Positions 34,690 to 39,291 of a stretch of 64,000 nucleotides of DNA are shown piece after piece. The position numbers and the translations under genes were made by a program. This stretch comes from a candidate division WOR-3 bacterium. GTDB taxonomy: Bacteria; Hydrothermota; UBA3072. Each line of letters opens with the position of its first letter. The first letter of the stretch is position 1. Below the pieces are notes generated by a model. The model saw nothing but the letters and a program-made list of their open reading frames with translations. It was not told the origin of the DNA and did no database searches. The stretch covers positions 62,001 to 126,000 of the forward strand of contig JBDRZZ010000001.1 in assembly GCA_039804165.1 (NCBI GenBank), in the 5' to 3' direction.

Positions 34690-35353
34690 GATAATAAAAT
34701 TAAATAATGTTAAGAAGAAATTTGTTTCTGGAACTGAAGAAGTAAGAGTCCTGGAGGGAATTAATTTAGAGGTAAGAAGAGGAGATTTTATAACCATAAC
34801 AGGACCTTCAGGATCTGGGAAAAGCACCCTTCTTAATATAATGGGTGGACTTTTGCATCCTGATGAAGGAGAGGTTTTACTTGAGGGGAAGTCTCTTTAT
34901 GAATACCAAGATAAAGAACTTGCAAGAATAAGGAATGAAAAAATAGGTTTTATATTTCAGTTTCATCATCTTCTTGTTGATTTTACGGTTTTAGAAAATT
35001 TGGCAATCCCTCTTTTGATGAAAGGCAGGGATCTTAAAGAGGCTTATAGAGAGGCAGAAAGATTGCTTTCTATTGTGGATCTTAGGGAAAGGATTTATGC
35101 TAAGCCAAGAACTCTTTCAGGGGGGGAATGCCAGAGAGTGGCTATCCTTCGTGCTATTATAACTCAACCCATATTGCTTCTTGCAGATGAGCCCACGGGA
35201 GATTTAGATGAAGCTCACGCAGAGGTTGTTTTGAAGATGATTAAAGAGATACATATAGAGAGGGGAATGACTGTTGTTCTTGTTAGCCATAACGAGAGGG
35301 TTGCACAAATGGGGAAAAAGATATATAATTTAAGTGGAGGAAGGTTAAGATGA
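34682..35353 (+). CDS. lolD: Lipoprotein-releasing ABC transporter ATPase LolD
   Basis: 223 residues from the ATG at 34682, which overlaps the lolC stop by 8 bases; a longer reading from 34658 merely lies in lolC. It has Walker A G-P-S-G-S-G-K-S-T near 40, the Q-loop F-I-F-Q-F-H-H-L-L, characteristic of LolD/MacB ATPases, signature L-S-G-G-E-C-Q-R-V-A, Walker B L-L-L-A-D-E-P-T-G-D-L-D and H-loop S-H. It energises release of lipoproteins to the periplasmic chaperone. It is followed by mcsA with a 4-base ATGA overlap. Confidence 0.93.
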   Translation: MSEIIKLNNVKKKFVSGTEEVRVLEGINLEVRRGDFITITGPSGSGKSTLLNIMGGLLHPDEGEVLLEGKSLYEYQDKELARIRNEKIGFIFQFHHLLVDFTVLENLAIPLLMKGRDLKEAYREAERLLSIVDLRERIYAKPRTLSGGECQRVAILRAIITQPILLLADEPTGDLDEAHAEVVLKMIKEIHIERGMTVVLVSHNERVAQMGKKIYNLSGGRLR

Positions 35354-35817
35354 AGTGTGATTTATGTGGTAATAATGAGGCAAAATTTAAGTATTATGAA
35401 GTAGATTCTGATAAGGTTCGGGAAATGAATATTTGTGAAGGATGTGCCAGAGAGAAAGGGATTGAAAGTAAAATAGAGGAAGAACCAATAGGAGAGAAAA
35501 ACAAAGTTTGTGGTAATTGTGGACTTAGCTTTGAGGAATATAATGAGACTAAAACACTGGGATGTCCTGATTGCTATAAGACTTTTAATAAATGGATTAA
35601 GATTTCCTTAAAGAAGATTCAGAAGGATGTTGTTCATAGAGGAAAAGAAGCAATTAGAAATTCAAGGATTATGGATGTTAAAAGGGAAATTCAGGAACTA
35701 AAGAGGAAACTTGAAAGTTTTGTAGAAAGCGAAAGATTTGAAGAAGCGCTTAAGTTGAGGGATGAAATTGAAAAAAGAAAAAAGGAACTTAAAGCCATTA
35801 GGGGTAAAGGTGATTGA
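35350..35817 (+). CDS. mcsA: McsA-like zinc-finger protein with UvrB/UvrC motif
   Basis: A 155-residue protein with two cysteine-pair zinc modules (C3/C6 with C29/C32 near the start; CGNCG and CPDC in the middle) and a C-terminal coiled UVR motif (about 115-150; E-S-F-V-E-S-E-R-F-E-E-A-L-K-L-R-D-E-I). This is the McsA architecture. In Firmicutes McsA activates the McsB protein-arginine kinase and connects it to ClpC. It precedes an McsB homologue and clpC, as in the classic ctsR-mcsA-mcsB-clpC operon, but no ctsR is present. Confidence 0.9.
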   Translation: MKCDLCGNNEAKFKYYEVDSDKVREMNICEGCAREKGIESKIEEEPIGEKNKVCGNCGLSFEEYNETKTLGCPDCYKTFNKWIKISLKKIQKDVVHRGKEAIRNSRIMDVKREIQELKRKLESFVESERFEEALKLRDEIEKRKKELKAIRGKGD

Positions 35818-36862
35818 TTATCTTGTGGATAAATTTCCTTCCTGGATTGAAAAATTAGGCCCTTATTCAGATATGATTCTATTCTCTAAGGTTTCTTTAT
35901 ACCGTAACTTGGGGGGCTATAAATTTAATTTCAAAAATTCGGAGAAGGAAAAGGAGGAAATTTTAGAGTTACTACGAGAAGGATTTTCTGCTCTTCCTTT
36001 ATTTGAAAATATTATTTTTTTAAGAGAGCTTAATAATAACGAGAGGCAATTTTTGATGGAAAGAGAATTTATTTCAAAAGATTGTTTGAAGAACTTTCAT
36101 TTTGTTGGGTTGGGTTTAGATGCCTCCCAAGAGAAGATATGTGTTTTAAATGGAAAAGAGCATGTTGAGATTTCTTGTTTTTGCCCTGAATTATTGGTTA
36201 GGGATGCTTATACAGAATGTGATAGGTTAGATGATGAATTGAATGAGGAGTTTGGTTTTGCTTATGATGAGGAATTGGGTTTTCTTACTTCTTCAATTGA
36301 GAAGCTTGGAACCGGAATGATTGTCTCTTCGGTAGTTCATCTACCTGCCCTTGTTATTACAGGAGAGATTGTAGAGGTTATTGAGGATATTGAGGATTCC
36401 CTTTTTCATATTGAGGGAATTTTTAATATTGAAGAAAATGTTGCGGGAAGCTATTTTAGGATTAGTAACAGATTTACTCTTGGGATATCTGAGGAGGAAA
36501 TATTAGACTTGTTTGAAGGAAAAATAAAGGATGTTATTAAAGAAGAAGTCGCAAGTAGAGAGTATTTAACCCAAAAAGCGGGATATGAAACTGAAGATAA
36601 AATTTGTAGGTCTTATGGTATATTGGAGAATGCAAGAATGCTATCTATAAATGAGTTTTTGAATTTATCTTCAGCTGTTAGGCTTGGTTTGAGTTTGGGG
36701 ATTATAAAAGATATAAATATAAAAGAGTTAAATAAATGGATTTTGCAAGCTTTACCAGGATATATAAGGGTTTTAAATCCAGAAATTAATGACATTAAAG
36801 AAGAAAATATTGTTAGGGCAAAATTAATAAGAAGTAATTTAGGAGGAGAAAAATGTTCATAG
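35810..36862 (+). CDS. McsB-like protein, predicted catalytically inactive arginine-kinase homologue
   Basis: 350 residues from GTG 35810 (AGGGG upstream, overlapping the mcsA stop); an ATG at 35762 is a longer alternative. Fold and length match McsB: L-G-P-Y-S-D near 16, G-F-L-T-S-S-I-E-K-L-G-T-G (157-169), H-L-P-A-L (177-181), I-S-N-R-F-T-L-G (218-225), R-S-Y-G-I-L and R-L-G-L-S-L-G. Catalytic positions are lost: S-R-I-R-L-A-R-N reads S-K-V-S-L-Y-R-N (26-33), N-E-E-D-H reads N-G-K-E-H (114-118), the C-P-T-N cysteine is S162, and the R of G-T-G-L-R is I171. It is probably a pseudokinase that binds McsA/ClpC, possibly as adaptor or phosphoarginine reader. Confidence 0.85.
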   Translation: MIDYLVDKFPSWIEKLGPYSDMILFSKVSLYRNLGGYKFNFKNSEKEKEEILELLREGFSALPLFENIIFLRELNNNERQFLMEREFISKDCLKNFHFVGLGLDASQEKICVLNGKEHVEISCFCPELLVRDAYTECDRLDDELNEEFGFAYDEELGFLTSSIEKLGTGMIVSSVVHLPALVITGEIVEVIEDIEDSLFHIEGIFNIEENVAGSYFRISNRFTLGISEEEILDLFEGKIKDVIKEEVASREYLTQKAGYETEDKICRSYGILENARMLSINEFLNLSSAVRLGLSLGIIKDINIKELNKWILQALPGYIRVLNPEINDIKEENIVRAKLIRSNLGGEKCS

Positions 36863-39291
36863 ATGAAGGTTTTACGAAAAAACTTATAGATGTTATAAAG
36901 ATAGCAAAGGATATAGCTAAAGGAGCAGATTTAGAAGAAGTAACTCCTTTAATTCTTTTTCTTGCTTTGCTAAAACATCGTAACAATACAGCTGTTACAA
37001 TAATGGATGAGTTGGGGATAGATATTGATATGGCCGAGAGCAGGATTATGAAGTTCCTTAGTATTAATGAGGAAAGAATGAAATCAGATGAACCTATTGG
37101 GTTGTCTGAAAGCTGTATCAGCATTATGGAGCAGGCAAAAGAGGAAGCTTTGATGCTTGGTAAACAGGTAATAGGAACCGAACATCTACTTTTGGCATTG
37201 CTTAAGTCAAAAGAAAGTAGTTTTGTTAAAATCTTACGGTTAGAACCTCTTGAATATTATTCTGCAAAGAGAATTCTTCTTGACCTTTTTGAGAGAGAAA
37301 TACCTCAGGATAAAGAAAAGACTAAGTCTTCTGATAGAACTTTAGAGTTTTATACCAGGGATCTTACAGAACTTGCAAGAGAGGGGAAAATTGATCCTGT
37401 TATTGGAAGAGAGGGAGAGATTGAAAGAGTTATTCAGACTTTGTGTAGGAGAAAGAAAAATAATCCTGTTCTTGTTGGAGAACCTGGGGTTGGTAAAACT
37501 GCAATAGTTGAAGGTCTTGCCCAAAGAATTGTTTCTGGTAGAGTTCCTAAGGTTTTGCAGAATAAAAGAATTCTTTCTTTAGATCTTGCTTCTGTTATTG
37601 CAGGAACGAAATATCGTGGGCAATTTGAAAAAAGATTAAAACAGATTTTAGATTCATTAAGAGAATCTAACTATATTCTTTTCATTGATGAGATTCACAC
37701 TATTGTAGGTGCTGGAGCTGCTGAGGGAGCCATAGATGCTTCTAATATGTTAAAACCTGTTCTTGCAAGTGGAGAGATTCAAACGATTGGTGCAACAACC
37801 CATGAAGAGTATAGGAAATATATTGAAAAAGACGGAGCTCTTGAAAGAAGGCTCCAGATGATTATTGTAGAGCCTCCTACGATAGAAGAGACAATAGAGA
37901 TTTTAAAAGGAATTAAACGTAAATATGAGGATTTTCATAAGGTTATTTATCCTGATGATGTGATTGCTGTGGCGGTTAAACTTTCTGCTCAATACATTCA
38001 GGGTAGAAATCTTCCAGATAAAGCTATTGATGTTCTGGATGAGACAGGAGCAAGGGTAAGATTGAGAGAGACAAAGGTTCCTGATGAGATTGTAAAATTA
38101 GAAGAGGAGCTAAGAGAAGTTAAGGAGAAATTGGTTAAAGCAAGAGAAGAAGGCAGATATGAGGTTGCGATTGAACTTAGGGATAAGAGGGATGAACTTG
38201 AGGAGAAGTTAGAGAGAAGTCTACAAGAATGGGGTAAGTATGGAAGTTTTAAAAGCGTTGAAGTGACAGAAGATGATATTAGAGAGGTTGTTTCCCTCTG
38301 GACAGGGATTCCTCTTAAGAGACTGAAAGAGGAAGAAACAGAGCGTCTTCTCTCTATGGAGAAAGAGATCAAAAAGAGAGTTGTTGGACAAGATGAAGCT
38401 GTTAAGGTTGTTTCCCAGGCGATAAGAAGAAGTAGGGCTGGTTTGCGTGATATGAGAAGACCTTTGGGTGCTTTTCTTTTCCTTGGACCGACTGGAGTAG
38501 GGAAAACTGAGCTTGCTAAGCAACTTGCAAGATTTCTCTTTAATACCGAAGATGCTTTAATTAGAATAGATATGAGTGAATTTATGGAAAGATTCAATGT
38601 TTCAAAGTTGATTGGAGCTCCTCCTGGATATGTTGGGTATGAAGAAGGGGGGACTCTTACAGAGGCTGTTAGAAGAAGACCTTATGCTGTCGTTCTTTTG
38701 GATGAGATAGAAAAGGCACATCCGGAAGTTTACAATATCCTTCTTCAGGTTTTTGATGAAGGGATTTTAACTGATGCCTGTGGTAGGAAGATTTCTTTTA
38801 GAAACACAGTTATAATTATGACTTCAAATATAGGAACAAAGGAAATAATGCAGGGGACTCATTTAGGCTTTAAGAAGAGCGGTAAAATTGAATATGAGGA
38901 AATGAAGGAATATCTTCTTGAAGAGATTAAGAACAGATTTAACCCTGAGTTCTTAAATAGAATTGATGAATGCGTTGTTTTTAGGCCTCTTGATAGAAAA
39001 ATGATGTCTTCAATTGTGGATATATTCTTTGATGAGGTAAAGAAGAGAGTGGAGGAGAAAGGTTTTGAGATCTCTCTTACTGAGGAAGCAAAAGAGTTTC
39101 TTATTGAGAAAGGGTTTGATCCAGAGTTTGGAGCAAGACCTTTAAAGAGAATTATTCAGAGGGAATTAGAGGATAAATTGGCGGAGGCTTTCTTAAAGGG
39201 AGAATGGAAGGAAGGCAGTAAAATCGTGGTTGCCAGAGAGGGTAATGACTTGATATTCTTTACCTCTCATTCTGTGGCTGAAGTTATCTAA
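36853..39291 (+). CDS. clpC: ATP-dependent Clp protease ATP-binding subunit ClpC
   Basis: A 812-residue unfoldase with the ClpC layout: N-terminal repeat domain (about 1-145, with G-T-E-H-L-L-L-A-L-L), first AAA module with Walker A G-E-P-G-V-G-K-T, a middle domain with the UVR-type motif (A-R-E-E-G-R-Y-E-V-A-I-E-L-R-D), second AAA module with G-P-T-G-V-G-K-T, and an L-G-F ClpP-docking region. It feeds proteins to ClpP, which is not in the window. The start overlaps the McsB-like gene by 10 bases with AGGAGGAG before it. Confidence 0.95.
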   Translation: MFIDEGFTKKLIDVIKIAKDIAKGADLEEVTPLILFLALLKHRNNTAVTIMDELGIDIDMAESRIMKFLSINEERMKSDEPIGLSESCISIMEQAKEEALMLGKQVIGTEHLLLALLKSKESSFVKILRLEPLEYYSAKRILLDLFEREIPQDKEKTKSSDRTLEFYTRDLTELAREGKIDPVIGREGEIERVIQTLCRRKKNNPVLVGEPGVGKTAIVEGLAQRIVSGRVPKVLQNKRILSLDLASVIAGTKYRGQFEKRLKQILDSLRESNYILFIDEIHTIVGAGAAEGAIDASNMLKPVLASGEIQTIGATTHEEYRKYIEKDGALERRLQMIIVEPPTIEETIEILKGIKRKYEDFHKVIYPDDVIAVAVKLSAQYIQGRNLPDKAIDVLDETGARVRLRETKVPDEIVKLEEELREVKEKLVKAREEGRYEVAIELRDKRDELEEKLERSLQEWGKYGSFKSVEVTEDDIREVVSLWTGIPLKRLKEEETERLLSMEKEIKKRVVGQDEAVKVVSQAIRRSRAGLRDMRRPLGAFLFLGPTGVGKTELAKQLARFLFNTEDALIRIDMSEFMERFNVSKLIGAPPGYVGYEEGGTLTEAVRRRPYAVVLLDEIEKAHPEVYNILLQVFDEGILTDACGRKISFRNTVIIMTSNIGTKEIMQGTHLGFKKSGKIEYEEMKEYLLEEIKNRFNPEFLNRIDECVVFRPLDRKMMSSIVDIFFDEVKKRVEEKGFEISLTEEAKEFLIEKGFDPEFGARPLKRIIQRELEDKLAEAFLKGEWKEGSKIVVAREGNDLIFFTSHSVAEVI

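Follow-up and report, generated by a model that had tools for sequence, protein, structure and literature searches.

The window analysed here, the whole 64,000-nucleotide stretch of DNA from a MAG of candidate division WOR-3, encodes a homologue of the protein arginine kinase McsB that, judged from its residues, is firmly supported as a catalytically dead pseudokinase of the guanidino-kinase fold. That this protein retains a non-catalytic function in the McsA-McsB-ClpC unit is well supported by purifying selection, conserved McsA-contact residues and co-occurrence with McsA. Our main reading, to which we assign a probability of about 60%, is that the dead McsB is kept with McsA and that the resulting pseudokinase complex would act as a phosphoarginine-independent adaptor of ClpC. 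The gene lies in the following locus:

35350..35817, plus strand: mcsA, intact in its UVR motif and in the CxxC pairs of its two zinc fingers
35810..36862, plus strand: pseudo-McsB gene, 350 aa from GTG 35810, within an open reading frame that reaches an upstream ATG at 35762
36853..39291, plus strand: clpC of the ClpC1 type, linked to mcsB

The three genes span window positions 35350-39291, and mcsB overlaps mcsA by 8 nt and clpC by 10 nt, in agreement with an earlier note on this DNA, which had placed it in an overlapping mcsA-clpC operon. Judged from translations read by eye, a putative LolC/E-type permease gene and an ABC ATPase gene lie 5' of mcsA, and putative parA and parB lie 3' of clpC. 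Read from the in-frame ATG at 35762, the full mcsB frame encodes 366 aa. The first residue of the nearest McsB relatives aligns with the GTG at 35810, so this start, also the one adopted in the earlier note, is the better supported; S162 and I171 counted from it correspond to S178 and I187 of the 366-aa frame and to C167 and R176 of B. subtilis McsB.

Homology to McsB covers the whole length of the protein and extends to its fold. The match to NF002194 is strong (E=1e-80) and, at 271 bits, below the cut-off of 385; that to NF053707 scores 231 bits against a cut-off of 500, and both NCBIfam cut-offs for protein arginine kinase are therefore missed. Solved McsBs are matched in sequence at E ~1e-54, with ~32% identity in structural alignment. 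An AlphaFold2 model (mean pLDDT 90.4) superimposes on the McsB structure 6fh3 with a Z of 43.9 over 344 residues (rmsd 1.9), consistent with the retained fold landmarks recognized previously from the sequence. When contigs were scanned with the window protein, the only match listed was a WOR-3 relative of the same genus. Within this preserved fold, the active and ATP sites have been replaced:

35885..35908, plus strand: SKVSLYRN in place of SRIRLARN, with ATP arginines R29 and R31 lost and R34 kept
36149..36163, plus strand: NGKEH in place of the catalytic NEEDH, with E120 and E121 lost and H123 kept
36293..36322, plus strand: SIEKLGTGMI, with the catalytic Cys167 changed to S and ATP arginine R176 to I
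36413..36430, plus strand: R207 changed to E and E212 to I, the fifth ATP arginine and the lid glutamate

We scored nine catalytic positions (R29, R31, E120, E121, R125, C167, R176, R207 and E212 in B. subtilis numbering) and found none of the nine kept; the window protein carries K, S, G, K, E, S, I, E and I, in that order. Every substitution from which loss of the arginine-kinase active site had first been proposed is real (R29 to K, R31 to S, E120 to G, E121 to K, R125 to E, C167 to S and R176 to I), the proposal itself holds, and the changes at R207 and E212 add to that list. Nor are these residues missing from proven kinases: the B. subtilis and Geobacillus McsBs, together with 38 relatives from the phylum, carry all nine. 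In B. subtilis McsB, R29K, R31K, R125K, R176K, R207K and R337K each singly leave no kinase signal in vitro, and the mutant study that established this used C167S as its kinase-inactive form (PMC7235348). All six of these arginines are changed in the window protein, and only one of the changes is a plain R to K.

Two readings would leave the protein some chemistry. One, that it is a weakly active kinase tolerating its substitutions with help from McsA, can appeal to the strong stimulation of McsB by McsA and to some family members in which the position of the second NEEDH glutamate is still acidic, but we consider it highly improbable: single conservative R-to-K changes abolish activity (PMC7235348), and the window protein has Lys at that glutamate and has lost all five ATP-binding arginines. 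The other, an enzyme whose chemistry or substrate has changed, is improbable as well. The fold is kept, and R34, H123 and G172 are invariant in all dead McsBs, but most of the nine positions converge on no new conserved set; across the window's family, R125 is E, K, R or Q, R176 is I, V or E, and E212 is I, T or D. That most ATP arginines have no new conserved replacement in the family argues against a new nucleotide site, and the catalytic columns are no better conserved (0.49) than the rest of the domain (0.50).

The degenerate site is shared by the entire order. Each of six genomes of the window's family, and both genomes of the order's other family, keep zero or one of the nine residues (8/8 genomes), whereas the class's two other sampled families (L007, L008) keep 9/9. 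An alignment within the phylum thus places the clade-wide loss at the level of the order, with sister families intact, and recurrence in independent genomes excludes chance, misassembly and sequencing error. A search of the window's genome for a second, active McsB, as had been suggested, found none, and a second McsB was likewise absent from all genomes of the order and sister families examined. CtsR was not found in the genome, a weak negative since the same search gave no match in the B. subtilis control either. The genome encodes two more ClpC-like ATPases (G000:C14:39458-41815 and G000:C44:2171-5432), the latter directly upstream of a clpP gene.

A survey of 69 McsBs from 31 families of this one phylum gave nearly all-or-nothing catalytic scores: 8-9 in 39, 0-3 in 23 and 5-6 in 7. 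Severely degenerate copies occur in families f1, f2, f8, f14, f19, f25, f29 and f34, and partial cases in f10, f21 and f5. On a gene tree from which the active-site and receptor columns had been left out, and in which some dead lineages are long-branched and may be misjoined or split, at least six changes separate severely degenerate from intact states, and at least eight separate all degenerate (6/9 or fewer) from intact ones. More than one loss is a safe conclusion, because half of f10 is degenerate and f14 branches within a supported clade that also contains intact copies. As read from these sequences, catalysis has been lost independently several times among related lineages. In f10, the McsB of one genus (L020, L021) scores 6/9 and that of its sister genus (L013, L066) is intact; loss in this family may be in progress. 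One genome with a dead McsB (L105; G052, f25), a MAG 87% complete, shows no ClpC1-type protein and only a Clp ATPase of ~1059 aa.

Dead mcsB is under purifying selection and is no pseudogene. Estimates of dN/dS, with saturated pairs left aside and some values resting on high dS, are 0.08-0.15 for dead or partly dead pairs from seven families and mostly 0.04-0.14 for intact pairs; one very close f10 pair, with few changes, gives 0.36. McsA and McsB are, moreover, kept or lost as a unit. Among 147 genomes, 123 have McsB, and McsA accompanies it in 121 of them, while the 24 genomes that lack McsB all lack McsA too; in the two exceptions, McsB lies near a contig end (G084) or is represented by a fragment only (G144). 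Both proteins are missing from every sampled genome of three other families (f13, f27 and f32), so mcsA and mcsB are removable. ClpC-like ATPases are still present in f13 and f27, the families checked, despite the absence of McsA-McsB. In f19 (L045, L050), McsA is ~107 aa long and has lost its first zinc finger and kept its second, and the partner ClpC has lost both phosphoarginine-contacting (pArg) glutamates (QH, IH).

These patterns bear on the notion that the gene is a decaying passenger, held solely by translational coupling to clpC. The gene overlap would allow for this, but it is made very doubtful by four observations: the frame is full-length in 6/6 family genomes, dN/dS matches the low values of intact genes, the loss is old and order-wide, and both genes have been removed elsewhere. 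It would also leave unaccounted for the stronger conservation of the C-terminal domain and the McsA-contact loop relative to the remainder of the protein. The relevant elements of the window protein are:

36263..36289, plus strand: YDEELGFLT, the retained McsA zinc-finger contact loop (B. subtilis 157-165; S. aureus 147-153)
36557..36610, plus strand: retained R266 and R283, equivalent to B. subtilis R255 and R272, which are needed for McsA stimulation

In S. aureus, the McsB 147-153 loop binds the second zinc finger of McsA (PMC12467219). Its pattern, G-x-L/F-T, is kept in all dead McsBs, though the cysteine that the loop positions is gone, and in the window it is accompanied by an adjacent mcsA with intact zinc fingers. 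R-to-K changes at R255, R272 and R341 in B. subtilis McsB remove only stimulation by McsA (PMC7235348); dead copies keep R255 and R341 in 23/23, and at R272 have R in 18 and K in 5.

A different fate has befallen the sites at which phosphoarginine is sensed and read:

36803..36817, plus strand: phosphoarginine receptor motif of McsB, changed from RDxxR to ENIVR, with R337 and D338 lost and R341 kept
36880..36954, plus strand: pArg1 pocket of the ClpC N-domain, with B. subtilis R9 changed to K, E32 to L and H33 to I

ClpC N-terminal residues are numbered by a B. subtilis sequence that agrees with the published T7, R9, E32, K85, R122, D356, E359 and F436. The residue assignments of Suskiewicz 2019 and Trentini 2016 are used as relayed by PMC7235348, PMC8370763 and PMC12583610. 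The phosphoarginine receptor of McsB consists of R337, D338 and S285 (PMC8370763); the window protein has E, N and I at these positions and reads ENIVRA where the receptor motif is RDxxRA. Intact McsBs keep R337 in 38/41 and D338 in 40/41, degenerate ones in 3/30 and 7/30. We accordingly reject phosphoarginine binding by the dead McsB, one of two roles offered in the earlier note for a non-catalytic adaptor; the pseudokinase and its kept function stand, on the strength of selection, McsA contacts and co-occurrence. The accompanying assertion that mcsA and clpC are intact is right for mcsA and for the ClpC motor and fails for the pArg1 pocket.

In ClpC, R9 is invariant where McsB is intact (23/23 genomes); where McsB is degenerate, 5/20 genomes keep it and 15/20 have lost it. 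No genome of the order has H33, and E32 is missing from the window's genus; the pArg2 residue E106 persists except in f19, so a full loss of phosphoarginine reading is unsupported. In the resting state R9 pairs with E435 (PMC12583610), a residue replaced by K or R in all six family genomes; together with R9 to K, this abolishes the R9-E435 salt bridge.

Outside the window, the genome encodes a Sua5-YwlE fusion (G000:C3:122494-122925; L104, L128) whose phosphatase P-loop reads CSANKCRS. Across the six genomes of the family this P-loop is C-[TS]-A-N-[KLMI]-C-R-S, versus CTGN[TS]CRS in most relatives. The residue that determines YwlE specificity is presumably the P-loop T, a position at which 30/35 genomes with intact McsB and 11/26 with degenerate McsB still have T or S. 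Two genomes in which no McsB was detected (G056, G015) have Leu where the family has [KLMI]. Specificity of YwlE for phosphoarginine has been reported to depend on a single residue (PMC5506225). Decay of ClpC and YwlE alongside McsB is supporting evidence and no proof, since it is uneven among lineages (the YwlE motif persists in f8 and f2, ClpC E32 in f8, and ClpC R9 in f14 and f10) and since independent-pairs tests for the McsB receptor, ClpC and YwlE yield 2 to 4 supported pairs, too few for significance.

Gene linkage and conservation in sequence together suggest the role we favour. The parts that hold McsA and McsB together are kept, and those that make, sense and in part read or erase phosphoarginine are lost, for which a phosphate-free adaptor or activator is the simplest account. 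The dead McsA-McsB complex would still assemble and dock on ClpC, and, once docked, would bring clients to ClpC or free it from its resting state in the manner of MecA, with no phosphoarginine made. In parallel, the ClpC and YwlE of this lineage have shed parts of their phosphoarginine-reading and -erasing sites. In S. aureus ClpC, E32A/E106A destabilises the resting state (PMC12583610), and an altered N-domain may thus be easier to activate, possibly replacing the need for phosphoarginine. Such a role is not the default, because stimulation of B. subtilis ClpC by McsB requires kinase activity (PMC5506225). The broader proposition seems to us evenly balanced: that arginine phosphorylation has disappeared repeatedly from the McsA-McsB-ClpC system of this phylum, that the system may persist as a targeting complex free of phosphate, and that the ClpC and YwlE phosphoarginine sites were lost in step.

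The main rival, which we hold to be unlikely, sees the dead McsB as an anchor or inhibitor that would silence ClpC (or McsA) and let go of it under stress, preserving the inhibitory side of the known McsB-ClpC pairing. In B. subtilis, McsB is strongly inhibited by direct ClpC binding, which translational coupling favours (PMC5506225); mcsB and clpC overlap in the window; and an extra brake on ClpC could be useful given that the R9-E435 resting-state bridge is lost in 6/6 family genomes. Inhibition alone, however, does not account for the constant retention of McsA.

Whether McsB is an adaptor in addition to a kinase is open in ClpC biology, because mutations that kill the kinase also kill ClpC stimulation (PMC5506225). 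In long-dead natural McsBs arising from several separate losses, the two functions would already be parted, and the adaptor becomes directly testable. If the broader proposition is true, McsB has a kinase-independent core function that selection maintains in its own right. The annotation 'protein arginine kinase McsB' does not, in any case, prove that a bacterium uses phosphoarginine. The open-access papers searched contained no description of naturally occurring McsBs with a dead catalytic site; with a search confined to open-access papers, this is no proof of novelty.

Compared with the McsB kinases of B. subtilis, G. stearothermophilus and S. aureus, the window protein is alike in fold and length, in lying in an operon with mcsA and clpC, and in its McsA-contact loop and C-terminal dimerisation domain, and differs in that all nine catalytic and ATP residues and R337, D338 and S285 are replaced. 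B. subtilis mcsB C167S is likewise dead and keeps a residual kinase-independent effect on MgsR turnover (PMC7235348), but it is a laboratory mutant with one change, unlike a natural nine-residue loss that spans the divergence of an order. Bacterial Ser/Thr pseudokinases offer a parallel of dead kinases kept as regulators (PMC12599244), although they have another fold, and McsB appears in that source only in the reference list. MecA activates ClpC by binding to it and leaves the client unmodified, the mode we propose for the dead McsB; it is no homologue of McsB, and the likeness is limited to this putative mode of action.
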